Shown here: positions 1 through 19,813 of the stretch, piece by piece
How the letters are laid out: the number at the start of each line of letters is the position of its first letter
Numbering within the stretch: the first letter of the stretch is position 1
Assembly (NCBI GenBank): GCA_020428895.1
Contig: JAGQLZ010000059.1
Location: forward strand, 324-21,188
Direction of reading: 5' to 3'
Length of the DNA stretch: 20,865 nt
Source: Candidatus Kaiserbacteria bacterium
GTDB taxonomy: Bacteria; Patescibacteriota; Minisyncoccia; Phycocordibacterales; UBA918
Translations under genes and position numbers: made by a program
The notes under the pieces: generated by a model
Seen by the model: only the letters and a program-made list of their open reading frames with translations
Databases searched by the model: none
Told to the model about the DNA's origin: nothing

Positions 1-933
1 ATCGATTTCTCAGACGGTCCATTCGTTCTGGGTTCAGTCGATGAAACTGACGTTGATATTGCGTCAACAACCGGAGACTTCACAGTCGCCGCAGACTGTT
101 TAGGTACAGATGAAGTATCAGCATCTTTTGGAGCTGGTCCAGTTTTAACCCTGACTTTCTGTGCGGGTGACGGAGGATATATTAATTCTAATGGTACAAC
201 TACCATTAAGATTGGTAATAACGCCACTTTTAGTGGAGACTCAGGAGACGCTAATGCACAAATGACCAATCCAGCAGTTGGTTCATATCAGATTCCAATA
301 ACAATTGGTGGTGCTGATTCTGGTGAAACTCGAGTGGCTATCATTAATACAGTTACAGTTTCTGCATCTGTTGATACTACCTTCGATTTCACAGTTCGCG
401 GTGTCGCACCTGGTACAGACGTTAACGGAACTACAACTACTGGTTCTTCTTCACCACTTGCTATCGATTTTGGCTTACTTGAAGCCGGAGTTGCTAGTAC
501 AGCGGCACAGAACCTTGACGTTGTAACCAACGCAACAAATGGATTTGTTGTTACTGTGCAGGTTGATCATCAACTACTATCTTCAACCGGTGCTGATATT
601 GATGGTTTCCGTAATGGAGGCTATGATTCAACACCACAACCATGGGAAGCGCCAAACGGTACTATAGGAAATGAAAATAACTATGGTCACTGGGGTGTTA
701 CCTCTGAAGATGCTTCAGTTGGCGCAGGTCTGGCCGATAGTTTCGGTACAGAACTTTATGCGTCCGCATCAACCACACCGTTAGAAGTATTCCGACACAA
801 TGGTCCTGCTGACGGTACTACCGTCGACGTAGGAACAACTCAAGTTGGATACACAGTTCAAATTACCACTTTACAAGAAGCTGGTGATGACTACAACGCT
901 ACGCTGACATACGTAGCAACACCAATTTTCTAG
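1..933 (+). CDS. Secreted surface protein with C-terminal WxL-like sorting domain (5' end outside window)
   Basis: The frame is open from the first base to the stop at 931-933, so this is the last 310 residues of a longer protein; the internal ATG at 262 is not a credible start. The visible part is Gly/Thr/Ser/Asp-rich and predicted all-beta, as in secreted adhesin-like proteins. From about residue 126 to the end it carries a domain that is also the C-terminus of the giant protein at 7714-15168. Shared landmarks are an 'FG.L' strand, 'TNAT-G-[FY]', a 'P..W' motif, 'P-[RL]-EV', and a final 'LQ.AGD...Y-[VI]-A-[TI]-P-[IT]-F'. The layout (an early FG motif, and a G-x-Y-x-x-x-[LI]-x-[YW] strand before a terminal Pro) recalls the WxL cell-wall-binding domain of Firmicutes. 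That relation is my inference. A terminator follows 34 bases after the stop, so this gene ends its transcription unit. The function beyond surface display is unknown. Confidence 0.85.
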   Translation: MDFSDGPFVLGSVDETDVDIASTTGDFTVAADCLGTDEVSASFGAGPVLTLTFCAGDGGYINSNGTTTIKIGNNATFSGDSGDANAQMTNPAVGSYQIPITIGGADSGETRVAIINTVTVSASVDTTFDFTVRGVAPGTDVNGTTTTGSSSPLAIDFGLLEAGVASTAAQNLDVVTNATNGFVVTVQVDHQLLSSTGADIDGFRNGGYDSTPQPWEAPNGTIGNENNYGHWGVTSEDASVGAGLADSFGTELYASASTTPLEVFRHNGPADGTTVDVGTTQVGYTVQITTLQEAGDDYNATLTYVATPIF

Positions 934-966
934 TCGCGAGAAAGTTAGTGTACAGACTTGGAAGTA

Positions 967-1012
967 AGCAAAAACCCTATCTCCCACCACGAGAAGGGTT
1001 TTTTGCTTTTTT
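967..1012 (+). terminator. Intrinsic terminator after the first gene
   Basis: The left arm AGCAAAAACCCT (967-978) pairs with AGGGTTTTTTGCT (995-1007) with one unpaired T. An inner TCTC/GAGA stem (980-983 with 991-994) closes a seven-base loop. A run of six T follows at 1007-1012. The hairpin lies 34 bases after the stop at 933 and about 50 bases before the next -10 element, so it separates two transcription units. Confidence 0.85.
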
Positions 1013-1038
1013 AGGTAAATTTTATGTGCAAAAGATAT

Positions 1039-1076
1039 TATTTTTTAAGAATGAATCTAGGTATAATAGACAATAT
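1039..1076 (+). promoter_or_regulatory. Promoter with consensus -10, almost no leader
   Basis: A perfect TATAAT sits at 1062-1067. The region 17 bp upstream (1039-1044, TATTTT) is a poor -35 in an AT-rich stretch. Transcription would begin around 1074-1077, so the mRNA would start at or within a few bases of the ATG at 1077. No Shine-Dalgarno sequence precedes that ATG. Confidence 0.6.
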
Positions 1077-2111
1077 ATGAAGACCATAGGGACGTTTGTT
1101 GCACTGGGATTATTTTCGGTTGGTTTGCCAGCTTATGCGGCTTCTTTGTACATGGATCCAGGTTCAGCTGATTTGAAAATTGGTGATTCAGTAACCATGG
1201 CAGTTCGTCTTGATGTCAGTGAAGCAGCTGGCGAATGTGTCAACGCAGTTGATGCCACCATTAATTATTCTCCTGAAATTGAACCAGTAGACATTTCTCT
1301 AGGTCAGTCTATTTTTAGAATGTGGGTAGAAGAACCAACTATTGATAAAAATAAAAATCAGATAACTTTTGCTGGTGGAATACCAAATGGTTACTGTGGA
1401 CGTATCTCTGGTGACCCTCAGTTAACCAATAAAATAATCGAAATTGTTTTTGTATCTGCTAAAAAAGAAATACTAGAGGAAGATACAGACGTTATTGCCG
1501 AAATAAATTTTTCAGAAAATACCAATGCCTATTTAAACGATGGCTTTGGTACAGTGGCAAATTTACGTACTGATGGCTCAACAATAGTGGTGAAGCCAGA
1601 ATTAGGAGGAGATAGCAATCAATGGCTTGAATTAGTAGCTTCTGATAGAACAGCGCCAGAACCGTTTAGTATCTCTTTACAAAAAGGTAACGGTGCATTT
1701 AGTGATAAATATTACATAGTATTTAATACAACTGACAAACAAACTGGCATTGATCATTATGAAATCATCGAAGAGCCACTTGATAGTTTAAATATTTTCC
1801 GTTTTGGTGCTGCTAACGCTCCATGGATAACAGCTCGCAGTCCGTATGTGTTGGATGATCAGAATCTAAATAGCACAATTAGAGTCAAAGCCTTTGATAA
1901 CGCTGGTAATTTCTACATGGCCACCTTAGTACCTGACGAGCACTTAAGGAATACGCCATTAACTGAGAAAATTTCTAAAGTAATAATCATTATCTTCTTA
2001 GCCTTGATGGTGGTATCACCGGTTATTATGGTTGTTAACCGCCGACGCACTGTTAAGAATAGGATATTAAAACAAACTAATTCAGTAACAAATTATGAAG
2101 ATAAGCCATAA
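1077..2111 (+). CDS. Membrane-anchored cohesin-domain protein
   Basis: A 344-residue protein. I start it at ATG 1077, because the frame upstream (from 948) runs through the terminator and promoter, while 1077 gives a clean signal peptide (residues 1-21, ending 'AYA-A'). Residues about 22-170 form a cohesin-like beta-sandwich: 'NAVDATINYSP', then 'W-V-E-E-P-T', then 'FAGGIPNGYCG', matching the 'NA.DA....', 'W.[QE]EPT' and 'F.GG.P.GY.G' pattern of the next gene. C54 and C107 could form a disulfide. Residues about 190-285 look like an Ig/fibronectin-type sandwich ending 'AFDNAGN'. A transmembrane helix (301-320) and a short basic tail place the body outside the cell. It opens a four-gene unit and its end overlaps the next gene by 17 bases. 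The cohesin fold predicts a dockerin partner; the gene ending at 5273 has one. Confidence 0.88.
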   Translation: MKTIGTFVALGLFSVGLPAYAASLYMDPGSADLKIGDSVTMAVRLDVSEAAGECVNAVDATINYSPEIEPVDISLGQSIFRMWVEEPTIDKNKNQITFAGGIPNGYCGRISGDPQLTNKIIEIVFVSAKKEILEEDTDVIAEINFSENTNAYLNDGFGTVANLRTDGSTIVVKPELGGDSNQWLELVASDRTAPEPFSISLQKGNGAFSDKYYIVFNTTDKQTGIDHYEIIEEPLDSLNIFRFGAANAPWITARSPYVLDDQNLNSTIRVKAFDNAGNFYMATLVPDEHLRNTPLTEKISKVIIIIFLALMVVSPVIMVVNRRRTVKNRILKQTNSVTNYEDKP

Positions 2112-3846
2112 GTACATTTCGATATTTCCAACGATAACTTTTTTGTTTTGTTTACTGATGTTTTTTGTGATGCCACAGATTGCTGATGCGGCTAAGTTAT
2201 CACTTTCTCCCGGTACTGGTGTGTACACAGCTGGTGGTACTTTTACTGTACGTGTAATTCTAAATACCGAAGGTCAGCCAGTTAATGCTGCTGATGCTAC
2301 CTTGTCGTTTAATTCTAGTGAGTTAACAGTTGTGTCAGTATCGAGAAGTGGTTCGATTTTTAATCTTTGGACACAAGAACCAACCTTTTCAAATTCAGCC
2401 GGTACCATAAGTTTTGGTGGTGGTTCACCAACTGGTTACACCGGCAGTAGCGGCACAATTATGAATGTAACTTTTCGTGCCGCTACTGCCGGAACTGGTC
2501 GTGTATCATTTACAAACGGCTCTGTTTTAGCTGCTGATGGACGAGGTACTAATGTTTTATCTAACATGAATGGTGGAACTTACACCATTTCCGCGGTTGA
2601 TGTACAGCCAGATCCGGAGGTTATTATTGAGTATGTTGCTCCTGCTAACACTCCGGCAAAACCTGCTATTAAATCATCCACTCACCCTAATCCAGATGGT
2701 TGGTATAAAGAAACCACTGCTAAACTAAGTTGGACAATTCCAACTGGTGTGACTGGAGTAAGAACATTACTTGATAATAATGCTGGCTCAATTCCAACCA
2801 AAGTTTATGAGTCACCAATTTCCAGTATTGATTTGGATAATCTTGAAGACGGAATAAGTTACTTTCATATACAGTTTAGAAACAGCGAAGGCTGGGGAAA
2901 GGTAGCACACTATCGACTAGCGGTAGACACAAAAAATCCTGAAAGTTTTGAGATTGTACCAGTGGAAGGTTCAGACCCAAGTAATCCTAGTCAAACCTTT
3001 GAATTAAAAGTTAAAGATGCAATTTCTCCCGTTAAGCGCTTTATAGTAAAAGTAAATGCTGATGAGCCGTATGAATATATTGATGAAACAGCCAGTGGCA
3101 CTATTACAGTCGGACCACTGGAGCCTGGTCATCATACTTTAGTCATTGAAGCATTTGACTCTGCCGGTAATAGTATAGCTGATACGCATTCTTTTAATAT
3201 AATTGCTTTTGGTAAACCACAATTTACAGATTATCCGACTGAGTTAAACGAAGGAGTGATACCGGTCATTAAAGGTTTGACCAAACCAAGAGCAAAAGTA
3301 TACGTAACTTTATTGCGAGGTGGTAAAACTATTGCAGAAAATATTGAAGTTACTGCTAATGAAAATGGAGAGTTTATCTTTATTCCTGAAGAATCTCTAA
3401 ATAACGGTATTCACGAGTTAACTGCTTATGCTGTTGATGAATTAGGAGCGCAAAGTGAGGTATCTGACACAATTAGAATTGCTGTTCAGCAACCGGGCTT
3501 TATTAGAATCGGTAGCTTTATAGTCAGCATTCTATCAGTTCTGATTCCACTAATCGCTCTATTGGTACTACTAACGCTTTTTGTGTGGTTTGTTTATATG
3601 CGTCTAAAACGTTTTAGACGGAAAGTAAGTGTTGAATCAACTGAAGCTTTTGATATTGTTAAAAAAGAATTTTCTGAACTCCACACTATATTGCTTGCTC
3701 AAGAGAAAAAAGTAGCTGAATCAAGAAAAACTAAGAAATTAACAAAAGCTGAGTCAGAATTAATTGAAAGTTTAACCATGGAACTACAAGATTCTCAACA
3801 GCGAATTGAGAAAGAAATTACCGATGTTACAAAATTAACGAAATAA
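2095..3846 (+). CDS. Cohesin-domain membrane protein with Ig-like modules and cytoplasmic coiled coil
   Basis: A 583-residue protein whose start overlaps the previous stop by 17 bases, indicating translational coupling. Residues 1-33 are a signal peptide ending 'ADA-A'. Residues about 34-167 are the clearest cohesin-like domain in the window ('NAADATLSFN', 'W-T-Q-E-P-T', 'FGGGSPTGYTG'). Two or three Ig/fibronectin-like sandwiches follow (about 183-280, 281-370 and 372-465); the middle one ends 'AFDSAGN' and the last 'AYAVDELG'. A strong transmembrane helix (474-502) is followed by a basic stop-transfer segment (RLKRFRRK). The last 75 residues are rich in Lys/Glu/Leu and predicted coiled coil, in the cytoplasm. 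The protein thus spans from an outer binding domain to an inner helical tail. It may be a scaffold for dockerin-bearing partners, but I see no enzymatic motif. Confidence 0.9.
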   Translation: MKISHKYISIFPTITFLFCLLMFFVMPQIADAAKLSLSPGTGVYTAGGTFTVRVILNTEGQPVNAADATLSFNSSELTVVSVSRSGSIFNLWTQEPTFSNSAGTISFGGGSPTGYTGSSGTIMNVTFRAATAGTGRVSFTNGSVLAADGRGTNVLSNMNGGTYTISAVDVQPDPEVIIEYVAPANTPAKPAIKSSTHPNPDGWYKETTAKLSWTIPTGVTGVRTLLDNNAGSIPTKVYESPISSIDLDNLEDGISYFHIQFRNSEGWGKVAHYRLAVDTKNPESFEIVPVEGSDPSNPSQTFELKVKDAISPVKRFIVKVNADEPYEYIDETASGTITVGPLEPGHHTLVIEAFDSAGNSIADTHSFNIIAFGKPQFTDYPTELNEGVIPVIKGLTKPRAKVYVTLLRGGKTIAENIEVTANENGEFIFIPEESLNNGIHELTAYAVDELGAQSEVSDTIRIAVQQPGFIRIGSFIVSILSVLIPLIALLVLLTLFVWFVYMRLKRFRRKVSVESTEAFDIVKKEFSELHTILLAQEKKVAESRKTKKLTKAESELIESLTMELQDSQQRIEKEITDVTKLTK

Positions 3847-3847
3847 T

Positions 3848-4513
3848 ATGGAAATTCAGAATGCAGATAAATTAAAAAACACCAATAATATTTACAAGCT
3901 ATTGGTGGGAATCTTGATTGGTATAGTTGCAACACTGACCTACACACATTTTCAAACAAGTACACTGAGTGCAAATTTAAAACAAAGTATTTCCTTGCAG
4001 GAATCAAAAGTCATTACTATGTCAGAAATTACTGATTCTAATGTGGCTGACCAAACAGTGTCTAAAGTAGTAGCTGATTGCCAGCGTAGCGAACGTGAAC
4101 AATATGATAACCTTTTATCTTCATTAAGTGACACTTATAGTCCTGCTCAGTTAAATGACTTAAGTATTTTGCACAAATTGTGTGGTAAATATTATGCTTC
4201 ATTAAAAACTATAAACGTTATGCGACTACAGAAAGAGATCGAAGTGCTTGATGACTTAGTGAAGGTTACTGAATCAAATACCATCACTGTAGATGGCTGG
4301 TATGAGCTTTTGGCAAAGGAGCAACAACAAGCTGATCTGTTTCGAAAATTAGCTGATATTCAAGGTTTAATAATAACCGCTCTTACTAAGGGAGAATCAG
4401 CTAAGGGTGAGGTTGTTAAAGAATTATTGTTGGAAGCTAGCGCCCTTCAGGAATTTCAACAAGTAGTTAATATAGAAATAGATAACCTAAGAAACTCACT
4501 GATTGAAAAATGA
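3848..4513 (+). CDS. Membrane-anchored helical protein of unknown function
   Basis: A 221-residue protein starting one base after the previous stop. A single N-terminal membrane helix (about 16-34) leaves most of the protein outside the membrane. The rest is predicted alpha-helical with heptad-like Leu/Ile spacing, unlike the beta-rich neighbours. C78 ('ADCQRSE') and C112 ('HKLCGKYY') are the only cysteines and could bond, pinning two helices together. I do not recognise a family. Its place between cohesin-domain genes suggests a structural or accessory role in the same assembly. The stop TGA (4511-4513) is followed at once by an in-frame TAA, a tandem stop. Confidence 0.8.
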   Translation: MEIQNADKLKNTNNIYKLLVGILIGIVATLTYTHFQTSTLSANLKQSISLQESKVITMSEITDSNVADQTVSKVVADCQRSEREQYDNLLSSLSDTYSPAQLNDLSILHKLCGKYYASLKTINVMRLQKEIEVLDDLVKVTESNTITVDGWYELLAKEQQQADLFRKLADIQGLIITALTKGESAKGEVVKELLLEASALQEFQQVVNIEIDNLRNSLIEK

Positions 4514-4520
4514 TAACAAC

Positions 4521-5273
4521 ATGGAAGTTATTAAGAAAATCCTCTCATATCTTTGGCCAACTGCTTTTCGACGAGGAAGCCGTACTGTAAGGTATGCATT
4601 TCCGATTTTCTTCTTATCAGCTGCATTGTTTGGAGCAGCTTTAATTGCTGATAAAAATAAATCTTATGTCAGAATAGTTGTTTCTGAACCAGTTGTTTTA
4701 GCTGGTGATACATTTTGGGTTGACGTTTATGCTTATGCTCATGTGCCTGTTAACGCAGTTGATGTTTCATTAAAATTTCCAAATAAGCAGATAAAAGTAA
4801 CCGGTATTGATGTTGGACAATCGGTAATTACTCTTTGGACTAAAGATCCAACGGTTACTAATGATATTGTTCGTTTAAGTGGTGGTACATACAATAAAGG
4901 ATTTTTGGGTGAACACTTAATTGCTACCATCAATATGAAAGCATTAGAAACAGGAACGGCTGAACTTAATACCTCTAGTATAAGATTATTGGCTGGAGAT
5001 GGGGTGGGTAGTACGGTAAATGCCATTAGTGATACGGTTGGAACGGCAAGTTTATTTATTTATGACGAAGATACTGATCAGGAGACAATCTTAGCGGCAG
5101 CAAATATCCGAATAAAAACCGACATTGATGGTGACGGTAAGGTTAATTTGAAGGACATAAGTGCATTTATGGCCGCATGGTTTAGTCGAAATACGACTTA
5201 TGACTTTAATGGGGATGGGCGAATGACCTTTGTTGATTTTAGTATTATTCTCTCAGAGTCATTTACACACTAA
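4521..5273 (+). CDS. Membrane-anchored protein with both cohesin-like and type I dockerin domains
   Basis: A 250-residue protein. I use ATG 4521; a TTG at 4503 would add six residues and overlap the upstream gene. After a basic N-terminus (RRGSRTVR) comes a membrane helix (about 25-43), so the rest is extracytoplasmic. Residues about 48-181 are cohesin-like, with 'NAVDVSLKF', 'W-T-K-D-P-T' and 'GGTYNKGFLG' matching the two cohesin proteins upstream. Residues 199-250 are a full dockerin: two EF-like loops, 'DIDGDGKVNLKD' and 'DFNGDGRMTFVD', each with Asp/Asn at loop positions 1, 3, 5 and 12 and followed by a helix. Dockerins bind cohesins in a calcium-dependent way. Having both on one tethered protein allows self-association or docking onto the upstream cohesins. 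It is the last gene of the unit. No catalytic domain is present. Confidence 0.9.
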   Translation: MEVIKKILSYLWPTAFRRGSRTVRYAFPIFFLSAALFGAALIADKNKSYVRIVVSEPVVLAGDTFWVDVYAYAHVPVNAVDVSLKFPNKQIKVTGIDVGQSVITLWTKDPTVTNDIVRLSGGTYNKGFLGEHLIATINMKALETGTAELNTSSIRLLAGDGVGSTVNAISDTVGTASLFIYDEDTDQETILAAANIRIKTDIDGDGKVNLKDISAFMAAWFSRNTTYDFNGDGRMTFVDFSIILSESFTH

Positions 5274-5298
5274 ATTATTATTTTCTAGTTAACATTGT

Positions 5299-5328
5299 TG
5301 TGGATAAATTCATAATATCTGTTGATAA
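5299..5328 (-). other. Two DnaA-box-like 9-mers, 21 bp apart
   Basis: On the minus strand, TTATCCACA (5299-5307) is an exact match to the strong E. coli DnaA box. TTATCAACA (5320-5328) has one mismatch. Same orientation and 21-bp spacing put both on one face of the helix, in an AT-rich gap upstream of a DNA-binding protein gene. By simple probability one exact 9-mer is expected about 0.16 times in a window of this size over both strands, so chance is possible. No dnaA, dnaN or other origin-linked gene is nearby. Confidence 0.3.
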
Positions 5329-5360
5329 GTACCTTAATAAGTTACGAATAGGTGTAGAAT
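5322..5360 (+). promoter_or_regulatory. Possible promoter of the HTH-membrane gene
   Basis: TAGAAT at 5355-5360 is a good -10 candidate. TTGATA at 5322-5327 is a good -35 hexamer, but it is 27 bp from this -10, too far for a standard promoter, and it overlaps the second DnaA-box-like site. No good -35 exists at 17 bp. If used, transcription starts near 5367, giving a leader of about 70 bases. Confidence 0.35.
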
Positions 5361-5410
5361 AAGTATGTGATGGGAAGGTGTCGAGTGTCGAGAAAGTCAC
5401 CACGATGCTC

Positions 5411-5436
5411 GAGATACGGCTTAAAATAAGCCTCTC
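5411..5436 (+). promoter_or_regulatory. Hairpin abutting the start codon
   Basis: GAGA (5411-5414) pairs with TCTC (5433-5436), and after an unpaired TAC, GGCTTA (5418-5423) pairs with TAAGCC (5427-5432) around an AAA loop. The ten base pairs end exactly one base before the ATG at 5437. They occupy the whole ribosome-binding region, so initiation could be controlled by folding. There is no T run, so it is not a terminator. Confidence 0.5.
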
Positions 5437-5823
5437 ATGATTGATGCAAGTAGAGCAAAACAAAAAGGGTATATTACCCTCAAAGAAGCGGCGCAAATCT
5501 CTAGTTATAGTCCAGACTATATTGGACAGTTAATTCGTTCGGGTAAGATAAAAGGAGAACAAGTTTACATGAATGTAGCTTGGGTCACCACCGAGGCAGA
5601 GATTATGGCTTACACAAATCGGTTAAAACAACCGAAAGTTTTTGAGGATAAGCCCGATAGTATTAATTATCGAAAACGCAATGTACTAGTTACAACAATT
5701 GCGATTTTGATTATGTTCGTGCTTTTGCCAGCTTTGGCATATTTGTTTGTTTTACCTGAATCAACGGCTAACGTTCACGCTTTTGATAGTGAACATTTTT
5801 TTGAAGAACATGCGTACAACTAG
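5437..5823 (+). CDS. Membrane-anchored helix-turn-helix protein
   Basis: A 128-residue protein. Residues about 12-60 ('ITLKEAAQISSYSPDYIGQLIRSGKIKG', then 'WVTTEAEIMAY') have the shape of a MerR/excisionase-type HTH (Helix_turn_helix_17-like): a first helix with 'KEAA', a recognition helix 'YIGQLIRSGK', and a wing leading to 'W.T'. A basic linker (YRKRN) leads to one membrane helix (about 84-106) and a short acidic tail outside. It could be a membrane-tethered regulator responding to an envelope signal, or an HTH fold reused for protein contacts; the sequence does not decide. It overlaps the next gene by 14 bases, so the two are likely co-translated. The start is preceded by a hairpin and no clear Shine-Dalgarno sequence. 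Confidence 0.85.
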   Translation: MIDASRAKQKGYITLKEAAQISSYSPDYIGQLIRSGKIKGEQVYMNVAWVTTEAEIMAYTNRLKQPKVFEDKPDSINYRKRNVLVTTIAILIMFVLLPALAYLFVLPESTANVHAFDSEHFFEEHAYN

Positions 5824-7675
5824 AGACATACAATCGCCTGTGTGCGAAACAGTTCTTGTTTACCGTCTGACATTTAGAAGTCAGTGGGTTTTGTGTTTTA
5901 TATTATTGTTGATACTTTCAATTTTTATACAACCGATTAATTTGGCATTTGCTAATGAAACCGAAGTTACCGAAGTTACTGAAGTGACATCAGCTGAACC
6001 AGATAAAGAAGAAGTGAAGGAAGTTGAAGAAGTGACAATTGAAAAATCAGCAGATGATCCACTAGAGACGGAAGAAAGTATTACAGAAACTGAACCAAAT
6101 AAGACTGAAGAAGTCTCCAAGCAAACCGTTGTAGATGATATCGAAGAAGAAGCTGAAGTGACCGAGACTGCTAATGCAACAGAAGAAGATGTAGAAAATG
6201 ATAGTAGTTCTTCAGACAATGATGATCCAGTTGAAGAAGATATTGAAACTGAAACTGAGGTAATTGTGCCAGTCACTACTAATACTGATAAGGCTGAAAA
6301 TGATGTAATTTCAGATGATTCATCAAGCTCTAGTGACAGTTCAGACGACGATTCTAATGATGAGGCATCTACTGCAACTGATGGCGTTAAATCAACGACA
6401 ACTACAGATTTTGCTTCTTCTACTGAAGATGTTAAAGCATCTAGTACAGATGACGTCAATCAAGAAAGTGTTGAAGATATTGTTGAAATTACTACTATCA
6501 CAAAAGATGATACTGACAATAATGATGACGTTAATGAAAACGATGATGTATCAAATAATAATCAGGAGGTAACTAAAACAAAAGCTTCTACCACTGATGG
6601 TTTAGCATCTTCGACAACAGATAGTGCCTCAACTAGTAAAAACGTGGTTCATGTAATTAAAGACACCGCGAGTGGACCGCTGTCATTTTCTGATACAGAT
6701 TGTATGCAGATTGGTAATGGTTCTTATTATTGTGAAAAAAATAAGAACAAAAATAATTATTATGAAAGTGACGAAATTTTTGCAGCACAAGATGAAGATG
6801 GCGATACTGAAATATATCTAAGATTAAAAGGTAATTTAACTAAGCTAACTGATAATAAAGTAGATGACGACGCTCCAAGATTTGATTCTAAAAGTAAACA
6901 AATGGTTTGGCATCGGTTGATAGAAGGTCGTTTTCAAATTGTGACTTATGATTGGGAAACAAAGACCGAAAAACAAATAACTCAAGGTACTTCAAATAGT
7001 TCAGAACCAGATTCTTACGATGGTGTAATTGTTTGGCAGTATTGGGATGGAAGTGATTGGGAAATTATGATGTTAAGCGAAGATGAGATGATTCAGGTTA
7101 CTGATAATGAATTTCCTGATTTGGCGCCAAGAATTAATGAAGAATATATTATTTGGAACACTGTTCATAATGGTAAAAAGACCATTGTTATTTATGAAAT
7201 AAGTACTGGTTTTACAGAATTAATTCATGATAGTGATGAAATTTTAGCCAGCAACCCTAGACTGGTTATGTTGTATGAGGCTGAATATGGTAACGGAGAC
7301 GTAGTTACCAGAGGTTTTGATCTTGAAACTGGGGAAATTATTCCACTTACAGTTCAACCAAAAGAGTTACCAACAAAAATTCCAGAACCTGAAAGTACAG
7401 ATGAAGTAAAGGCTTTGATTACTACTAAGTCAACCTCCCGAGAGAACAAAAATAGTGAAGATTTAGATATAAATACTGGATTGGCAACATCTACAAACAA
7501 AACTCCGTCAAGTTCAGCCACCACCACTGTAGTAGCTGAAGAAATTACTGATATCACAGATGTAATTGTAGAGGATTTTAATACAGAAACCCCGACAGGT
7601 GAAATAATTGATGACACCATAAATTTATCAGGAACCAGCACTATCCCAGACGTTGTTATTCCACCGATAGAGTAA
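5810..7675 (+). CDS. Secreted acidic low-complexity protein with TolB-like beta-propeller
   Basis: A 621-residue protein. I choose ATG 5810: upstream in-frame starts lie deep inside the HTH gene, and 5810 gives a basic N-region, a hydrophobic core (about 26-41) and a cleavage site 'AFA-NE' near residue 48. Residues about 49-290 are an extremely acidic Glu/Asp/Thr/Val/Ser linker with TEV repeats, Ser-Asp runs and 'ASST.D' motifs, resembling Ser-Asp stalks of surface adhesins. Residues about 300-515 hold four or five TolB/WD40-like blades ('DEIFAAQDEDGDTEIYL', 'LTKLTDNKVDDDAPRF', 'MVWHR', 'IVWQYWDG', 'IIWNT'), a propeller fold for protein contacts. C-terminal residues 516-621 are again Thr/Ser-rich. 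There is no C-terminal anchor or LPxTG. A role as a spaced extracellular binding module is inference. Confidence 0.85.
   Translation: MRTTRDIQSPVCETVLVYRLTFRSQWVLCFILLLILSIFIQPINLAFANETEVTEVTEVTSAEPDKEEVKEVEEVTIEKSADDPLETEESITETEPNKTEEVSKQTVVDDIEEEAEVTETANATEEDVENDSSSSDNDDPVEEDIETETEVIVPVTTNTDKAENDVISDDSSSSSDSSDDDSNDEASTATDGVKSTTTTDFASSTEDVKASSTDDVNQESVEDIVEITTITKDDTDNNDDVNENDDVSNNNQEVTKTKASTTDGLASSTTDSASTSKNVVHVIKDTASGPLSFSDTDCMQIGNGSYYCEKNKNKNNYYESDEIFAAQDEDGDTEIYLRLKGNLTKLTDNKVDDDAPRFDSKSKQMVWHRLIEGRFQIVTYDWETKTEKQITQGTSNSSEPDSYDGVIVWQYWDGSDWEIMMLSEDEMIQVTDNEFPDLAPRINEEYIIWNTVHNGKKTIVIYEISTGFTELIHDSDEILASNPRLVMLYEAEYGNGDVVTRGFDLETGEIIPLTVQPKELPTKIPEPESTDEVKALITTKSTSRENKNSEDLDINTGLATSTNKTPSSSATTTVVAEEITDITDVIVEDFNTETPTGEIIDDTINLSGTSTIPDVVIPPIE
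5960..5986 (+). repeat. Three tandem 9-base TEV-coding repeats
   Basis: Three near-identical units coding Thr-Glu-Val sit just after the predicted signal cleavage site of the acidic protein. They begin the low-complexity stalk and are a likely site of length variation by slippage. Confidence 0.7.
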
Positions 7676-7696
7676 GCATTTAAGCCAGATTTACGA

Positions 7697-7713
7697 TAGA
7701 ATGTAAATATAAC
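7697..7713 (+). promoter_or_regulatory. Possible internal promoter of the giant gene
   Basis: TAGAAT at 7697-7702 lies 11 bases before the ATG at 7714, implying a leader of only a few bases. No convincing -35 is found 16-18 bp upstream. No terminator separates this from the preceding gene, so read-through is equally likely. Confidence 0.35.
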
Positions 7714-10700
7714 ATGTATACGGGAATTCGGAGAATGTCCAAGAGTTTTTACGTGTGTGTGAAGAAATTATTAACTTTGGTAGTTTTGGTTAATTTAGTA
7801 TACGGAGGTATACCGTTACCATTTAATTTTAATTTCAACAAACCACAAACTGCCCATGCTTTGGCTGGAGATTTTTCGGTATTTCGAAAAAATTCTGGCA
7901 ATATTGCTATTCCAACCTCGGGTGCTGAGATAGAAATGACTTGGGATACAACAGTTTCTGAATCAAGCAATATTCAACTTCAAGGTGATACAAAGTCGAT
8001 CGATTTATCTGAAGGTGGAAAATATCTAGTTCTGTACAATGCTTGGGCCGAAGAAACTGGCGCAGGTACACAAAACCGTCGGGCCTTTGAGAGTTATTTG
8101 ACACTTGATGAATCAGAAATTGTTTACGGTCGGGGCGCTGGTTATATTCGAGATAGCAACCAAGATGATCAGTACGCATACACCAACGGAGCCGCTATTA
8201 TTGATGCCGGTGCCGGTGAAGATCTTAAAATAAATGTTAGACGAGATGATACCAATCCTGATGATTTAACACAGACTAGAGCTGGTACTAATGGTGTATC
8301 AGTTCTTAAAATGAAAGACAATCTTGATTACGCAATAATCCCTAAAACTTCAAATAGCACAGACATTAGTGGTAATACTAGTTTTATAGATGTTAGTTTT
8401 AATAATGCTGACGAGCTAGATACTGGTTCATTTGGTTACACTAGTGGATCTTCAGACATTACCCTTAAAGGTTCAGCTGGTGATTATTTTTTAGTTACTT
8501 ATAACATTAGACTCAATCAAACTGAAGGCTCAGGTGAAAGACAGAACTACCAATCGAGACTGGCTTTAGATGGTGTTGAAATTGATGGTACTAAAGTTAC
8601 AACTTACATTAGAGGTGACGCTAATAGTAATGGTATATATTACGGAACTTTAGCTTACTCTGGTATTATTCAAAAAACTAGCTCTAGTGATGAAATTTTA
8701 AATATTCAAGTTAGACAAGAGAATACTGATGATGGATCACCGCCAGCAACAGTGATTGTTGGTAATGAAACCGGTGTATCAATTGCCGCTCTTCCAGATA
8801 CTGCTCATTACATAATGCTAACATCTACAACTACTCAAGCAGTACCAAACACCCAGTCGCCAATAGATTTTGATGAACAGATAGTAGTTGATAGTACAGC
8901 ATTTTCACATTCAACAACTATCAATCCATCGCGGATTAATATTGATTTAGCGGGAGATTATTTATTCTTTTCAAACATACACGCCCTTAGAACTAGCGGT
9001 GGTGGTGACCGCGATCCATATCGAGTGGAGTGGCGCTTAGATGGCACTAACACTCTTGGCTATGGTGGACACGGTAGTTTTTTAAGAGGAAATCAAGGGT
9101 CACAAAATAGTTACGAAGCTGGATCGGCTGGTGGTTTGATAATACCGGGTTTGTCAGATACTCAGTATGTGGAAGTAACCATGTTTGATGAAGAAGATAA
9201 CGCTGATGCTGATTTAATACCTGGTGATATTGCGGTTCAAGGTGTGGAGATGTCACTACTTTTCCAGACAAACGTAGATGTTAGTGCTACCAGCTCTCAT
9301 AATACTAATTCTCAAATTCCAGCTAATAATGTTTATCAAGGTGGTGGGTTTGTGATTGAAGAGAACACTTCTTCTAGAAATGTAACGAATATAACAATAT
9401 CCGAATCTGGTACAGTGGATGGATCAACTGGTCTTGATAATATAAAACTTTTCTATGATCAGGATACTACTGCACCGTATGACTGTACTGGAGAATCATA
9501 TTCTGGTTCAGAGAGTCAATTTGGTTCTACAGACACGACTGGTTTTTCTGGTGCTAATGGCATTTCAAGTTTTACTGATTCAGTTGGCATTTCTACAACC
9601 TCGTCACTCTGTGTTTATGTTGTTTATGATGTTACAGAAAGTGCTAACGATGGTGAAACTGTAATTATCAGTATTAACGATCCGACTATTGATGTTGGGG
9701 TCACTTCCGGAGGAAGTATCAGTCCCGATTCAGCAGTCGCGCCGACCGGTCAAATGACCTTAGCCAAAGCTGATTTAACTCAAATTCATTACCATTGGCG
9801 TAATGATGACGGTTCAGAATCGGCAGCTACTTCTGTCGATGGTGCGGAGGATACGGCAGCGGGTGGTTTTACTGCTGGTACCCAACGGCGTTTACGTATT
9901 GAAGTTTCTGCTGAAGGTTCAGCTAACGCTGACCCAGCGCAGTTTAGACTACAGTATGCAGAAAAATCCGGTACATGTTCGGCCTCTTCTGGTTGGGAAG
10001 ATGTGGCTGATGTAGGCGGAGCTTGGGATATCGGTGATTCTACAAATCTTACTTTCGCAGCTAACGCAACCAATATCGGAAGTCAGGCCTTGGGTGAGGT
10101 AACCGATGAAGAGCTAAATTTCAATGGTACACAAACTATTGTTGACGGTGGTGACAAGAGTGTTGATGTAAGTATCGATGGTGATGAGTTTGCTGAACTC
10201 GAATATACCGTAATTTCTACAGCTGCCGCCACTGAAGGTAACACTTATTGTTTTAGGTTGGTAGATGAGTCACCAGATGTGACCCATAGTTACCGTATTC
10301 CACTCACTATAGATTCAGCAGAAGTTAATAGTAACCTGACAGATTTTCCAGTTTATGTTGATTTGAGTAACTTGGGTTCACATTTTTTCTCAAATGTTTC
10401 AAGTAATGGTGGTGATATTAGAATTACTGAAAGTGATGGTGCGACCGAAGTAGCTAGGGAGGTGGTGTCGATTAATACTGGGGCAGAAACAGGAGAACTG
10501 CATTTTAAAGCCCCAAGTATATCTTCTTCAGCTGATACAACTTTTTATATTTACTATGGTGCAGCTGGAGAAAATGAATATCAGGCGTCTAGTACTTATG
10601 GTTCCCATAATGTATGGAGTAATAACTTTGAAGCGGTATATCACTTTCCAACAACTGAAGACAGTACTGGTAACGGCTACACTTTAACAGCTTCTAACAT

Positions 10701-13700
10701 TACAAACTCAGGAACCACAAAGGTAGGTACTCAAGCCGCTGATTTTAATGGTTCCAATTCTCTTTATAGTCACCCAGATCCGAACTTAATTTTAAGTGGT
10801 CGTAGTGCAATCACCTTTACAGGTTGGATTGATAGTGACGTAACTAATACTGATAAAGGTTTTTTAATTGCAGATACTGTTAATGGTAGTGATGCTGGGC
10901 ATTGTATGCGTTACGATCAGTCGGGTGCTAGTGGTGGAGGATCACAAGTAATTAAAGGATGTATTGATACATCTTCAGGTGTTAGCCAATATGAGTCAGC
11001 TAGCAGTGTTCAGACTACTGACTGGCAGTACGTGTCACAAACATGGCAACCTAGTCAAGCAATTGAAATGTATATAAACGCTGTTGCTACTACTTATACT
11101 TTCTCACCAACTTCACGAACCGGTACGACTTTAGTGGGTGCAGGTACTCTTTACATTGGTGCTGGTGGAAAAGATACCACTTCTGGCGGTTGGGATGGAC
11201 GGTTGGATGAGTTTAGATTTGCCAGTGCCTACCGTAATAGTGCGTGGATAGCTGCTGAATATAGCAATCAAAATACACCATTAACATTTTATTCAACAAG
11301 TACTGAAGAGTCGTTAAACAATTCACCGGTAGCCATTACTTACGATGTGTACCCAGAAGCTAATATAACAGCTGACATCACAGTTTTATCTAGTGGTAGT
11401 CAAGTTTCCACACTCGATGCTGGCTCTACTGCAGGATACGTCGGCGGAACCTTTATTATTGAAAGGGATGGCGGTGATCGTATATTAACCGATATTACCA
11501 TTCACGAAACTGGAACTATTGATGCTCAAAATGATCTCGATAATATTAATATTTATTACGATTTAGACACTAGTTTTCCATATGACTGTACTGGAGAAAC
11601 CTATAATGCAGGATCAGATGCTCAATTTGGGTCAACAGACACTGATGGATTCTCAACTGCTAATGGTTCTTCTACGTTTACTCACGGAATTGGAGTAACC
11701 ATAAATACCACTCAAACTTTTTGTGGTTATGTTGTTTTAGATGTTAGTTCACAGGCAGTTAATGGAGAAACTATTGGTATACAGATAACTAATCCGTCTA
11801 CGGATGTAGTGGTAACCAGTTCATCAGTTGGACCAAGTACGGTAGTCTCACCAACTGGTGACACGACTGTGGCGGCTTCAATTTTAACGCAAACTGGTTA
11901 TCACTGGCGAAATGATGATGATAATGAAGTTGATGCTACTTCAGCTACTGGTGATATAGAAAACTCACCTTTGTTAGATTTACCAAGAAATACTACTTAT
12001 CGATTACGTTATCAAGTCTCAAATGAAGGAACAGTTACTAGTAATGCAACCCAGTTTCAGCTTGAATACAGAACTAAAGTATCTGCTTGTGACGCAACCG
12101 GATCGTGGCAAGCTGTAGATGTGAGCACCGCCTTTACTATGGGGTCTACCTCACAACTAATTGATGGAAATAATACAACGGACGTAACTTCAGGAGGTAT
12201 TTCTAATCCAGGTGGTAAAACTTTTCAGGGTACCAATGGTGGTCAGAAAGAAGACGATGATACAACTGGCAACATTACTTTGAGTAGTTCGCAGTTTGTT
12301 GAAGTTGAATACGCCATTGAAGCTACTAATTTATCTGGCTATAACACAGATTATTGTTTTAGGCTTACTGATGCGGGTACTCCATTGCCGGCATACACTG
12401 AATATGCTGAACTTACTACTCGTGAAAAACAAGATTTCTTTATCCAAAGAGGAACGTTGTTTGTGTCAGGCACGGGTGTAACCCTTACTGCTGGAGTTGA
12501 CTATGTAGCCCCAGCATCTACTAGTACTGCCTTTGTTCGTATTACAAATACTAATTACACTGGGGCTGGCCACTCAGTACAGGGTACTCAATCTGCAATA
12601 AATGTAACTGCCTATATTCAAGATCAATCTGACATTACTTCTAGTTTTCGGATTGGTAGACCAACTGGTGCTGCTAACTCAACCAGAGTAAGTTGGGAAA
12701 TTATTGAATATACCGGATTGGCAGGAGCAGATAATGAAATAATAGTTCGTGATGTTGATGCAGTTACTTATGGGACAACTGGTCTAACCGCGACTGGTAC
12801 AGCTTTAAGTAATGTCGCTGACGAAAATGATTTAGTAGTATTTATAACTGGTCAGTTGAATCCAAATACTGGCAGTGGAGCTTTTTTGCAAATGCAATCT
12901 ACAGCCGAATGGTATAGTACCACTAGCGAACCAGTGTTTAGACGTGGTCGGTCAGGTGATGCGATTGGAGTAAGTTACGCCGTAGTTGAATTTACCGGCT
13001 TGAACTGGAAAATTCAAAGAGTTGAACATCCATACACGGCCGCTGGATCTACAGAGACAGAAGCAATAAACCCTGTTAATAGTCTTTCTCGGTCATTTAT
13101 TCATTCACAAAAACGTATAAGCGGTACTGTAACTGGACTTGATGATTTTGGCCATATCATCTCTCAAGTTACTAGTGGTTTAGTTAATTTTCAACTCAAT
13201 TCAGGTTCAACTCCAGCCAATGTTCATACTTCGGTAGCTTGGGTGATTGAGAATACTCAGACTGGCGACGGATCCATGCAAGTTTTTCGGTCCGATAGTT
13301 CAGTTGATGGTAATGAAGCCGTTGAACCGAGAGTCACAGTCCGGTCATTCGGTGGTCCGGCAAATCGACTAAGTAATATCTCTGTGTTTGGTAGTAATGA
13401 TTCAACTGGTAGCGGTACAGCTTTCCCAAGAGCAATACTAGGCTTAACTGCCACCAGTACTTCACAATACGAATTATTTGAAAGTGATGCTGGACAAACT
13501 CAAACATACAGTATCATGACAGTGCAATGGCCGGTAGCGGAATTAGCTTTCCAGCAAAACTATTATCGTTTTTATGTAGATAATGCAAGTACCACTCCTA
13601 ATGATCCGTGGCCAGTTGGTGGAGTTAATTTGGGTGAAAATACTGCCATTACTAGTACAGATGATCCGCTTGGTGAAGGAGAGAGAGTACGAATCAGAAT

Positions 13701-15168
13701 GTCAATTAAAGCTAATAATGCTACCTTCCCTGAGAGCACTGTAAGTTTTAAGTTACAGTATGGTCGGCGCGATGGTATATCATGTAGTGCTATTTCAAGT
13801 TGGTTTGATGTAGGTGTGGCTGGCAGTGGTGAAGTTTGGCGGGGTTATGACAATACACCAATAGACGGTGACACATTAACACAATCTTTATTAAGCGCTG
13901 ATGTATTAGCTACTTATGAAGAAGAGAATAATTCGGCCGTTAACCCAAATGTAGCTCAAGTCGGTGATAATATTGAATACGACTGGTTAATTGAACACAA
14001 CGGTGCCACCCAACGTTCCGACTATTGTTTCCGCATGGTTGAATCTGATGGTACTGAATTTTCTAGTTATAATTATTATCCAACCTTACGAACCACAGGC
14101 TATACTCCAGTAATTAATAACTGGCGCTGGTACACTGACGAAGCTAGTGTTACTCCAACCTCTCATTTAGCTAATGAAAATGTGGCTCCAATTGATACTG
14201 CTAACCAAGAAGTATTAAAACTTCGTTTATCATTAAAGGAATTAGAAGGTGCGCCTGGTTCAAATCTTAAATTCTCACTTCAGTATTCTCAGTATAGTGA
14301 TTTTAGTGATGGCGGAGTAACCCTAGTTTCAAGTGCGAGCTGTACAGAAAATTCTATTTGGTGTTATGCCGATGGTGGTGGTAACGACAATGCTTTGATT
14401 GATGAAGCGGTGATTTCTGATTCTGATGCATGTTCTGGTGGCAGTGGAGTTGGTTGCGGTACACACAATGAATCTATTGATGGCCCTAGTACCTTAGCCC
14501 ACCCTTCTTTAGGAACCATTGAAATGGAATTCACACTAAAACAAGCTGGTGCTCGAGTTGGTGGTGTGTATTATTTCCGTCTGTATGATACCGCTTCTGA
14601 GGATGTAGTTTACGCTAGTACCACATATCCGAGTATTCAGGTGGAGAGTGCTAATTTAACCTTTACTATTGGCGGCTTACCTAGCGGTACGGTTACGGAA
14701 GGAATTACCACTGATGTCGGCACTACACCAGCTGGAGTCAATTTTGGTACTTTGCCACTGGATACAGAAATAGAAGCTGCTCATAGGTTATCAGTTAATA
14801 CAAACGCAACTGAAGGTTATCAAATCCTTACTTATGCCCGACAAAATCTTTTAAATACCTATGGAACAGCTATTGATCCAATTACCTCTACGAACCTAGC
14901 TCCAGCCGCATGGGCAACCGGCTGTTTAATTTCTGCCGATGGCTGTTTTGGATATCACGTCGGTGACGATATACTATTTGGAGGCTCAACTAGATTTTCA
15001 CCAATCGATAGTTATGCCGCCTTTGATACTACACCGCGTGAAGTAATGTATAGCTCTATTCCGATAAATGAATCTCAGGATATAGTTTACAAAATTCAGG
15101 TGGGTGAGTTACAAACCGCTGGTGATTACGAAACCGAAATTGTATATATAGCCATCCCAACTTTCTAA
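7714..15168 (+). CDS. Giant modular surface protein (DUF2341, LamG, repeated Cys-pair modules, WxL-like C-terminus)
   Basis: A 2484-residue secreted protein; ATG 7735 is an alternative start (GGAG only one base upstream). Signal peptide about 1-51 ('AHALA-G'). Modules in order: three related jelly-roll-like units (52-208, 209-373, 374-519); module A1 (520-687); module B1 (688-855, 'HYHWRNDDG...YCFRL'); DUF2341 (about 856-950, 'RIPLTID...FPVYVDL...FYIYYG'); LamG/concanavalin-like domain (about 966-1192, 'YHF...DFNGSNS...GRLDEFRF'); A2 (1213-1387); B2 (1388-1572); a beta-rich stretch (1574-1945); B3 (1946-2130); B4 (2133-2314); and a C-terminal domain (2315-2484) shared with the gene at 1-933. 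Repeats A and B carry conserved Cys pairs, suggesting disulfides. LamG domains often bind glycans, so adhesion is plausible but not shown. It lies six bases before a DUF916-like gene, so they are probably co-expressed. No membrane segment other than the signal is seen. Confidence 0.92.
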   Translation: MYTGIRRMSKSFYVCVKKLLTLVVLVNLVYGGIPLPFNFNFNKPQTAHALAGDFSVFRKNSGNIAIPTSGAEIEMTWDTTVSESSNIQLQGDTKSIDLSEGGKYLVLYNAWAEETGAGTQNRRAFESYLTLDESEIVYGRGAGYIRDSNQDDQYAYTNGAAIIDAGAGEDLKINVRRDDTNPDDLTQTRAGTNGVSVLKMKDNLDYAIIPKTSNSTDISGNTSFIDVSFNNADELDTGSFGYTSGSSDITLKGSAGDYFLVTYNIRLNQTEGSGERQNYQSRLALDGVEIDGTKVTTYIRGDANSNGIYYGTLAYSGIIQKTSSSDEILNIQVRQENTDDGSPPATVIVGNETGVSIAALPDTAHYIMLTSTTTQAVPNTQSPIDFDEQIVVDSTAFSHSTTINPSRINIDLAGDYLFFSNIHALRTSGGGDRDPYRVEWRLDGTNTLGYGGHGSFLRGNQGSQNSYEAGSAGGLIIPGLSDTQYVEVTMFDEEDNADADLIPGDIAVQGVEMSLLFQTNVDVSATSSHNTNSQIPANNVYQGGGFVIEENTSSRNVTNITISESGTVDGSTGLDNIKLFYDQDTTAPYDCTGESYSGSESQFGSTDTTGFSGANGISSFTDSVGISTTSSLCVYVVYDVTESANDGETVIISINDPTIDVGVTSGGSISPDSAVAPTGQMTLAKADLTQIHYHWRNDDGSESAATSVDGAEDTAAGGFTAGTQRRLRIEVSAEGSANADPAQFRLQYAEKSGTCSASSGWEDVADVGGAWDIGDSTNLTFAANATNIGSQALGEVTDEELNFNGTQTIVDGGDKSVDVSIDGDEFAELEYTVISTAAATEGNTYCFRLVDESPDVTHSYRIPLTIDSAEVNSNLTDFPVYVDLSNLGSHFFSNVSSNGGDIRITESDGATEVAREVVSINTGAETGELHFKAPSISSSADTTFYIYYGAAGENEYQASSTYGSHNVWSNNFEAVYHFPTTEDSTGNGYTLTASNITNSGTTKVGTQAADFNGSNSLYSHPDPNLILSGRSAITFTGWIDSDVTNTDKGFLIADTVNGSDAGHCMRYDQSGASGGGSQVIKGCIDTSSGVSQYESASSVQTTDWQYVSQTWQPSQAIEMYINAVATTYTFSPTSRTGTTLVGAGTLYIGAGGKDTTSGGWDGRLDEFRFASAYRNSAWIAAEYSNQNTPLTFYSTSTEESLNNSPVAITYDVYPEANITADITVLSSGSQVSTLDAGSTAGYVGGTFIIERDGGDRILTDITIHETGTIDAQNDLDNINIYYDLDTSFPYDCTGETYNAGSDAQFGSTDTDGFSTANGSSTFTHGIGVTINTTQTFCGYVVLDVSSQAVNGETIGIQITNPSTDVVVTSSSVGPSTVVSPTGDTTVAASILTQTGYHWRNDDDNEVDATSATGDIENSPLLDLPRNTTYRLRYQVSNEGTVTSNATQFQLEYRTKVSACDATGSWQAVDVSTAFTMGSTSQLIDGNNTTDVTSGGISNPGGKTFQGTNGGQKEDDDTTGNITLSSSQFVEVEYAIEATNLSGYNTDYCFRLTDAGTPLPAYTEYAELTTREKQDFFIQRGTLFVSGTGVTLTAGVDYVAPASTSTAFVRITNTNYTGAGHSVQGTQSAINVTAYIQDQSDITSSFRIGRPTGAANSTRVSWEIIEYTGLAGADNEIIVRDVDAVTYGTTGLTATGTALSNVADENDLVVFITGQLNPNTGSGAFLQMQSTAEWYSTTSEPVFRRGRSGDAIGVSYAVVEFTGLNWKIQRVEHPYTAAGSTETEAINPVNSLSRSFIHSQKRISGTVTGLDDFGHIISQVTSGLVNFQLNSGSTPANVHTSVAWVIENTQTGDGSMQVFRSDSSVDGNEAVEPRVTVRSFGGPANRLSNISVFGSNDSTGSGTAFPRAILGLTATSTSQYELFESDAGQTQTYSIMTVQWPVAELAFQQNYYRFYVDNASTTPNDPWPVGGVNLGENTAITSTDDPLGEGERVRIRMSIKANNATFPESTVSFKLQYGRRDGISCSAISSWFDVGVAGSGEVWRGYDNTPIDGDTLTQSLLSADVLATYEEENNSAVNPNVAQVGDNIEYDWLIEHNGATQRSDYCFRMVESDGTEFSSYNYYPTLRTTGYTPVINNWRWYTDEASVTPTSHLANENVAPIDTANQEVLKLRLSLKELEGAPGSNLKFSLQYSQYSDFSDGGVTLVSSASCTENSIWCYADGGGNDNALIDEAVISDSDACSGGSGVGCGTHNESIDGPSTLAHPSLGTIEMEFTLKQAGARVGGVYYFRLYDTASEDVVYASTTYPSIQVESANLTFTIGGLPSGTVTEGITTDVGTTPAGVNFGTLPLDTEIEAAHRLSVNTNATEGYQILTYARQNLLNTYGTAIDPITSTNLAPAAWATGCLISADGCFGYHVGDDILFGGSTRFSPIDSYAAFDTTPREVMYSSIPINESQDIVYKIQVGELQTAGDYETEIVYIAIPTF
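7867..9270 (+). repeat. Three diverged ~150-residue jelly-roll-like units
   Basis: The units share a 'G-[KD]-Y-L-[VF]-[LF]-[YS]-N' strand, an 'R...Y...L.LDG..' strand, 'G.G.-Y/S-[IF]-[IL]-R-[DG]' and a later '[GS]-[AG]-[AG]-[IL]-I' strand. They resemble C1q/TNF-type sandwiches in layout. The family is not recognised and the boundaries are approximate. Confidence 0.55.
9271..9774 (+). repeat. Module A, copy 1 (Cys pair)
   Basis: Residues about 520-687 of the giant protein. It has 'FVIEENTSSRNVTNITISESGT', 'PYDCTGESY', 'QFGSTD' and 'CVYVVYDV', which recur in copy 2 at 11350-11874. The conserved cysteines are C591 and C633. Confidence 0.75.
9775..10281 (+). repeat. Module B, copy 1 (Cys pair)
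   Basis: Residues about 688-855. The module opens with 'YHWRNDDGSE', contains an 'RLQY...C....GW' strand and ends with 'YCFRLVD'. The conserved cysteines are C755 and C846. Confidence 0.75.
11350..11874 (+). repeat. Module A, copy 2 (Cys pair)
   Basis: Residues about 1213-1387. It repeats 'FIIERDGGDRILTDITIHETGT', 'PYDCTGETY', 'QFGSTDTDGFS' and 'CGYVVLDV' of copy 1. The cysteines are C1292 and C1337, with nearly the same spacing. Confidence 0.75.
11875..12430 (+). repeat. Module B, copy 2 (Cys pair)
   Basis: Residues about 1388-1572. It opens 'YHWRNDDDNE' and ends 'DYCFRLTD...YTEYAEL'. The cysteines are C1459 and C1548. Confidence 0.75.
13546..14103 (+). repeat. Module B, copy 3 (Cys pair)
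   Basis: Residues about 1946-2130. It opens 'YYRFYVDNAS', carries 'KLQYGRRDGISCSAISSW' and ends 'DYCFRMVESDG'. The cysteines are C2024 and C2105. Confidence 0.7.
14110..14655 (+). repeat. Module B, copy 4 (Cys pair rearranged)
   Basis: Residues about 2133-2314. It opens 'NNWRWYTDEAS' and ends 'YYFRLYD', so the usual 'YCFR' cysteine is lost. Four other cysteines ('SCTENSIWC', 'ACSGGSGVGC') appear instead. It directly precedes the C-terminal WxL-like domain. Confidence 0.65.
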
Positions 15169-15173
15169 AGAGT

Positions 15174-16196
15174 ATGAAAATTTTATCTTGGTCACAGACA
15201 GTCAATAAAATAATTGCTAGCTTTGTTTTTATCTTAACTATTTTTTGGTTAGCTACTCCAGCAATTGCTGCTAACTATACAGTTTCACCACTTTTAATTG
15301 ATCATACAGTTGAAAAAAGAACTATTTTATCAGAAACAATTACGATAAAAAATTTTGAAAAACACCAAAATATTAGAGTTTATGCTAGTGTTCATGAAGT
15401 TACTTTAGGCGAAGGTGGAGAAATTAAAGAATTTACACCACCGTCAATGAGTGACAATACCAATTCTGTAACTAGTTGGATTGAAATAAATCGTGGTCGT
15501 TTGCAAATTGAACCGGGCGGGGAACTAAAGATACCAATGACAATTCGTATAAACCCAAAGGCTCAACCGGGTGAATATCACGCTTTTGTAGGGTTTGGCA
15601 ATGGTTCCAATCGAACCATTGCCGAGAAAAAAACCATGGACGGTATTGCTCCGGGTGTGATTATTAGAATTTCACTAGATGAAAAAAAGAACGTATTTTT
15701 AAAATTAAAACAATTTACGGTAGATAGATTTATAACGGATGTTAGTAAAGGGGGTGTTTCATATACCGTTACTAATCCTGGTGAAGAAGCAATTTCACCA
15801 AGTGGAGAAATTATATTTTATGATAATCGTGGGGTAGAAGTTGGGGCTATGCCTGTTAACGACTCTGGTCATGTAATAAATCCCGGCGAAGAATACGAAT
15901 TTACTTCAGCTTTACCTGAACATGCTGGCTTCGGCAAAAGGAAAGCATTTTTGTCACTTGAATATGGCACAAATCAATTAGCTTCAATTCATGATACAGC
16001 GTTTTTTTACATTGTTCCGTACAAGCAATTAATAATAATATTTTTAGTTGTTCTATTCATTGCGATAACAATTACTTTATTGATTAATAGAAGACTGACA
16101 AGAGAAATTGATATACATTCCGATGATTTACCATTATATGTTCGAGATGGTATACATAAAGACGAAGCAGATCATGATGTTAATCTTAAAAAATAA
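15174..16196 (+). CDS. DUF916-like membrane-anchored surface protein
   Basis: A 340-residue protein starting six bases after the giant gene's stop. Residues 1-32 are a signal peptide ('PAIA-A'). The body has two Ig-like sandwiches with DUF916 hallmarks: an opening 'YTVSPLLIDHTVEKR', a 'WIEINRGRLQIEPGGELKIPMTIRINP' stretch, and 'AQPGEYHAFVGF'; the second sandwich holds 'YTVTNPGEEAISPSGEI'. A C-terminal membrane helix (about 285-304) with a short cytoplasmic tail anchors it. In Firmicutes, DUF916 (WxL-interacting) proteins are encoded beside WxL-domain proteins and bind them at the wall. Here the neighbour upstream ends in a WxL-like domain, so the same partnership is the best guess. The next gene overlaps by 23 bases and is a paralogue in its first half. 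Confidence 0.85.
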   Translation: MKILSWSQTVNKIIASFVFILTIFWLATPAIAANYTVSPLLIDHTVEKRTILSETITIKNFEKHQNIRVYASVHEVTLGEGGEIKEFTPPSMSDNTNSVTSWIEINRGRLQIEPGGELKIPMTIRINPKAQPGEYHAFVGFGNGSNRTIAEKKTMDGIAPGVIIRISLDEKKNVFLKLKQFTVDRFITDVSKGGVSYTVTNPGEEAISPSGEIIFYDNRGVEVGAMPVNDSGHVINPGEEYEFTSALPEHAGFGKRKAFLSLEYGTNQLASIHDTAFFYIVPYKQLIIIFLVVLFIAITITLLINRRLTREIDIHSDDLPLYVRDGIHKDEADHDVNLKK

Positions 16197-19250: not shown

Positions 19251-19256
19251 GTACCT

Positions 19257-19811: not shown

Positions 19812-19813
19812 TT

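Follow-up and report, generated by a model that had tools for sequence, protein, structure and literature searches.

What is the C-terminal domain shared by two secreted proteins of a tiny, uncultivated Candidatus Kaiserbacteria bacterium, and how does it relate to the membrane proteins encoded directly behind the larger of the two? We analysed a window of 20.9 kb, part of contig C58 (JAGQLZ010000059.1) in a draft genome of 0.67 Mb that is about 80% complete. The window carries, on its forward strand, the genes for these two secreted proteins, Protein A and Protein B, and for two proteins that resemble the WxL-interacting proteins (WxLIP) of Firmicutes. A first-pass annotation had proposed a diverged WxL-type surface display system. 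The DUF916/WxLIP homologues, their linkage to the domain, and the presence of the domain on both small and large proteins support this proposal, but the kinship of the domain itself to WxL is remote. We give about even odds (a probability near 0.5) to the reading that the shared domain is a C-terminal immunoglobulin (Ig)-like domain held or completed by a membrane-bound WxLIP-like protein, and that the cluster works like the WxL/WxLIP clusters of Firmicutes. We arrived at this cell-surface assembly reading because of the shared domain, the WxLIP homology, the genomic linkage, the pilin-like fold neighbours and the Firmicutes model.

The shared domain and its WxLIP-like partners

Protein A (1..933; 310 residues in the window) consists of an N-domain followed by the shared domain (residues 149–310, 445..930). 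Its N-terminus is missing due to a run of Ns just upstream in the contig; a paralogue of 385 residues on contig C18 has a signal-like N-terminus. Protein B (7714..15168) is a large, secreted protein of 2484 residues with a weak DUF2341 match, and ends in the same domain (residues 2336–2484, 14719..15165). An alignment of the last 185 residues of the two proteins spans 182 columns, of which 55 are identical (30%, E of 8e-16 as a single comparison), and HHalign comparison of a 120-homologue profile of A to a 3-row profile of the B type gave 99.3% with an E of 8.8e-21 over 156 columns. Thus, a C-terminal domain of ~150 residues is common to the proteins that end at 933 and 15168, as annotated, and both open reading frame (ORF) ends are confirmed.

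We surveyed 65 loci, chosen for domain or WxLIP-like matches and with slight overlap of neighbouring loci, after removing L100, which was a duplicate, and a single partial ORF. The domain occurs in 84 ORFs and ends no more than six residues from the C-terminus in 83 of these. If two short ORFs that sit at contig ends (92 and 173 residues) are set aside, protein length ranges from 192 to 2484 residues, with groups near 190–270 residues, pilin-sized proteins near 350–440 residues, and giants. Two motifs stand out among 81 aligned domains. The first has Gly in 79/81, followed by a position that is aromatic in 61/81, while the second has a C-terminal Tyr in 81/81, followed by a position that is aromatic in 63/81. 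The corresponding motifs of B are G-Y-Q-I and V-Y-I-A. The second motif, annotated as Tyr-x-Ala, reads as aromatic-x-small residue across the family. Trp is found nine times at motif 1 and never at motif 2, and the Trp-x-Leu pair of WxL is absent. A terminal Phe is not a general trait: 34 of 83 full domains end in Phe and 13 in Tyr.

A search across the candidate phyla radiation (CPR) found the domain in 127 of 379 Patescibacteria genomes, about a third of those sampled. In the host genome, at its ~80% completeness, there are three copies by the NCBIfam model and one PamT-like copy, and the notion of a tag borne by many proteins of this genome finds no support in that form. The PamT-like protein (contig C23, L100:12953-13726; E of 6.8e-11 to part of NF058579) has a variant of the domain at its C-terminus; it is encoded where a contig ends, next to the tail of another WxLIP-like gene, which marks a second cluster in the genome.

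By homology, the two genes that follow B encode WxLIP (DUF916/DUF3324) proteins, which are related to each other. The first (15174..16196) was assigned through its family profile and has no PF06030 match of its own. The second (16108..17826, with its true start probably near 16174) carries a LytR_C domain (E of 1.1e-8) and scores 17.0 bits (E of 0.006) against PF06030, under the 27.3-bit cut-off, such that neither protein of the pair reaches the gathering score. The partner family profile matched the solved enterococcal EfmWxLIP1 (E of 1.6e-8, positions 39–265), and HHalign against 12 Firmicutes WxLIP gave 98.6% over 253 columns that cover both domains, relative to 2% for a reversed control. 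At an E of up to 1, PF06030 matches 17 of 23 aligned family members (best 6.9e-9). WxLIP are described (PMC10599100) as having a conserved NQIDKxxxYFDLK sequence. A hydropathy scan located an N-terminal hydrophobic segment in both window proteins, and later segments at residues 275–308 of the first and 306–336 and 402–433 of the second, consistent with the C-terminal transmembrane helix of WxLIP in each. The annotation of two DUF916-like membrane proteins after B is thus upheld. In the second protein the LytR_C fusion lies behind the further hydrophobic segment, and a same-genus relative is alike by length and similarity.

The domain and the WxLIP-like family are linked in genomes. Of 383 genomes of the host's class, 43 gave a match to the domain, 97 to the WxLIP-like family and 39 to both (Fisher p of 3e-22). 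A WxLIP-like match lies within 3 kb of at least 57 of 78 domain places; this place-level count omits about 25 weak WxLIP-like rows. The genome-level counts draw on all 97 genomes. Among the matches listed, those nearby are on the same strand in 57/57 cases and downstream of the domain in 54/57, and for 17/78 places there is no WxLIP-like match on the contig. Once the ten genomes used as sources of alignment rows are excluded, the linkage comprises 39/50 places, among the matches listed, and 29/33 genomes. Viewed from the partner, the upstream neighbour bears the domain for 50 of 73 WxLIP-like ORFs. There are 58 genomes with a WxLIP-like match alone; we fetched 12 loci from these and found the domain in 11, using an iterated model built from matches in the same loci that it then scored.

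A scan of named genomes for the A family gave 76 loci, whose titles mostly name Patescibacteria groups or unspecified bacteria and in one case Balneolia. Of the 50 loci that are at least 12 kb long, 47 hold a WxLIP-like gene; dockerins are present in 42 and cohesins in 35, and three loci lack all of these. The 57 fetched loci with WxLIP-like ORFs include the domain in 53, a dockerin in 34 and a cohesin in 31, and a frequent gene order is large protein, small protein, WxLIP, dockerin, cohesins. A lack of genomic association, which the annotation had named as grounds for abandoning its proposal, is rejected by these counts. These clusters regularly include cohesin-like and dockerin proteins, as scored by profiles seeded with the window proteins and five relatives. 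A dockerin is present in the loci of all five relatives (L032, L035, L039, L103 and L104), in one case under the Pfam cut-off.

Predicted fold and a proposed mechanism

The predicted structure of the B domain (14653–15165) has a mean predicted local distance difference test score of 95.2 and a predicted template modelling score of 0.89. Donor-strand pilins, counted from their titles, make up 37/50 and 36/50 rows of fold neighbours among the matches listed, with modest fold scores and sequence identities of 3–15%. These include FimG, FimA, PapA and CsuA/B of chaperone-usher systems, TasA and the archaeal threads, with which the domain shares an Ig-like arrangement. The window system differs from these pilins in that its partner is a membrane-anchored WxLIP-like protein. 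No WxL chain appears among the PDB matches listed, which says nothing on the WxL fold, and a literature search for TLP-1, a listed neighbour (rows 3–4), gave no identification.

Two Ig domains in one protein resemble the PapD chaperones. In Firmicutes, an AlphaFold2 model sets a hairpin strand of WxLIP into a gap of the WxL domain (PMC10599100). By analogy, we propose strand donation as the simplest account. Secreted proteins, the very large B and the pilin-sized A, would end in an Ig-like domain, and after Sec export the two-domain, membrane-anchored WxLIP-like protein from the next gene would give a strand to that domain. The donated strand would keep the domain folded, and may then anchor it at the envelope or pass it to a fibre, while the dockerin and cohesin proteins encoded alongside would probably pair and couple further modules.

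The resemblance to the Firmicutes WxL/WxLIP (Csc) clusters (PF13731, PF06030, PF11797) lies in a domain that ends both small and large secreted proteins, a related C-terminal strand motif, and a neighbouring gene for a two-Ig-domain, membrane-anchored WxLIP (PMC10599100, PMC9772566). Small and large WxL proteins also occur within WxL clusters according to PMC9772566. The differences are that the window domain lacks a significant direct WxL profile match, that Tyr/Phe replaces Trp in most motifs of window-type domains, and that the Patescibacteria clusters have dockerin and cohesin partners. A broader idea, which we hold tentatively and regard as rather less probable than the assembly reading, is that the Firmicutes WxL/WxLIP and the Patescibacteria Pam-type domain/WxLIP-like pairs may be one ancient, putatively usher-less chaperone-pilin system, with WxLIP as a tethered PapD-like strand donor, joined to cohesin–dockerin coupling in Paceibacteria-type genomes.

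Relation to the Pam and WxL families

The shared domain is not without precedent, since NCBIfam names a related domain, CPR_Pam_pilin_C (NF058581). A and B match this model with 31.6 bits (E of 1.5e-7) and 26.1 bits (E of 7.6e-6), respectively, below its 55-bit cut-off, in alignments that run from position 4 or 5 to the last position, 148 of 148. A window-type profile compared by HHalign to NF058581 members over the cut-off gave 96% with an E of 3e-9. WxLIP-like genes lie beside Pam members too, adjoining over-cut-off NF058581 members in two genomes (G118 and G084). Two families with adjacent accession numbers, NF058580 and NF058577, proved to be unrelated.

The Pam families (NF058581 and PamT, NF058579) suggest an alternative in which the domain is the polymerizing unit of a CPR "Pam pilus", where A is the main pilin, its own N-terminal strands join the subunits, B forms a tip or base, and the WxLIP-like proteins serve only as chaperone or base. 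The reach of the alignments to the end of the model fits this scheme, but the window scores fall short of the curated cut-off and B is a single protein of 2484 residues. PamR has no match in the host genome, and nine other genomes gave five weak matches at an E of up to 0.1, none over the cut-off. No filament has been observed, and our literature searches found no paper on the Pam system. We regard this alternative as doubtful, although it survives better than the others. A separate search found no paper that joins cohesin, dockerin and Parcubacteria. Our searches also turned up no account of a consistent WxLIP partner, of the large/small/WxLIP/dockerin/cohesin order, of Patescibacteria WxL-domain proteins, or of a pilin-like fold for the window domain.

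The WxL family itself is further removed. PF13731 (WxL) has no match to A, B or anything else in the genome, nor to 19 aligned window-type domains at an E of up to 10 with the HMMER filters on. Direct comparison to Firmicutes WxL profiles, made from 17 and then 131 small WxL sequences and separately from 6 of the large type, was not significant in local or global mode, reaching at most 10.5%. One WxL sequence searched against the PDB copy gave no match. PF13731 at an E of up to 0.1 was found in 15 of the 379 Patescibacteria genomes, five of them over the cut-off, and nine of 12 loci fetched around such matches hold the same WxLIP-like family. A profile of 20 Patescibacteria WxL domains gave 98.6% against small Firmicutes WxL (E of 1.5e-15, 150 columns), a fit that is partly by selection, as the domains were chosen by their match to Firmicutes WxL in the PF13731 loci. 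Several of these domains end like AGTYTSTITYSIS, with T-Y/F-x-L/I-S where Firmicutes have T-W-x-L. The annotated replacement of Trp by Tyr gains some weight from these proteins. Two other Patescibacteria loci (L236 and L237) each have two small WxL-type proteins, each near a WxLIP-like gene, repeated within about 6 kb.

The Patescibacteria WxL profile matched the window-type domain at 84% (E of 7e-6) over 27 C-terminal columns only, with a score of 39.2 where 40 shuffles reach 12.1. One shuffle scored 128.7 in no-realign mode, and this did not recur in default mode, with the same shuffles, or in 40 new ones. Control comparisons to the window-type domain gave 0.2% for cohesin, 4% for the WxLIP-like family and 0.3% for the clean N-domain of A. 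An initial version of the latter had exceeded WxL (92.8%), as a slice of an N-truncated row (P0013) reached into the shared domain. When the last 28 residues were removed, the WxL match fell to 2%, insignificant yet in the same register. A distant tie to WxL is plausible from these sequence comparisons and no more than that, because Pfam WxL is unmatched, the 84% link spans 27 columns, and the link falls to 2% without the C-terminal residues.

In another alternative, the domain would simply anchor its protein to the wall, the role proposed for WxL in Firmicutes, and the WxLIP-like proteins would stabilize it on peptidoglycan. WxL is described as a peptidoglycan-binding domain (PMC9772566, PMC10599100), and the LytR_C domain of the second WxLIP-like protein is in keeping with such a putative role; the window domains fall outside Pfam WxL, however, and we consider this explanation improbable. 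Finally, the domain might be no more than a common Ig-like module at the C-terminus of CPR surface proteins, with WxLIP-like neighbours that only reflect surface-gene islands. This would account for the grouping of cohesin, Ig and other surface proteins in the same loci, but is very hard to reconcile with the immediate adjacency (50/73), the common strand and downstream position among the matches listed (57/57 and 54/57) and the C-terminal placement (83/84).

The gene run and what the system may mean

The cluster is embedded in a forward-strand run that begins with the 5′-incomplete gene of A. The next gene encodes a cohesin-like protein with a C-terminal hydrophobic segment by hydropathy (948..2111; PF00963 E of 2e-4, 22.0 bits, under the 24.1-bit cut-off), and is followed by that of a cohesin and Big_13 Ig-like membrane protein (2095..3846; PF00963 E of 2.3e-8 and PF19077 E of 3.7e-11, both over cut-off). 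A 221-residue protein (3848..4513) is retained in the same-genus cluster at 31% identity. The product of 4503..5273 is a dockerin protein (PF00404 E of 8.7e-6, over cut-off) with a cohesin-like N-terminal part, the latter recognized by a custom profile seeded with that very protein and by similarity to a same-genus protein. A small protein with an excisionase/AbiEi-like helix-turn-helix and then a hydrophobic segment (5437–5823) and an acidic protein with beta-propeller-like repeats (5747..7675; TIGR04275 E of 1.8e-9, under cut-off) precede B. Behind B and the WxLIP-like pair, a small transmembrane protein and three redox proteins, DsbA-like, TlpA-like and DsbD/CcdA-like (18570–20575), close the window. 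The redox genes suggest that disulphides may matter in the exported proteins. Most of the run, from the A-like protein through the TlpA-like protein and including the acidic protein, is kept in order in a same-genus genome (L097), where the small helix-turn-helix gene and the DsbD-like gene have no match among ORFs of at least 90 residues.

According to PMC12206443, every cultivated member of the Patescibacteria lives on other microbes. Much of their surface machinery is unnamed, and a domain with a recognizable partner family offers a testable handle on it. It would also extend WxLIP, so far described chiefly in Firmicutes, to a distant phylum, and suggests that WxL domains could serve as pilin-like modules and not solely as wall binders. 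These observations hint at a wide distribution of a surface system familiar from gut bacteria, which may work through one protein that lends a strand to another.
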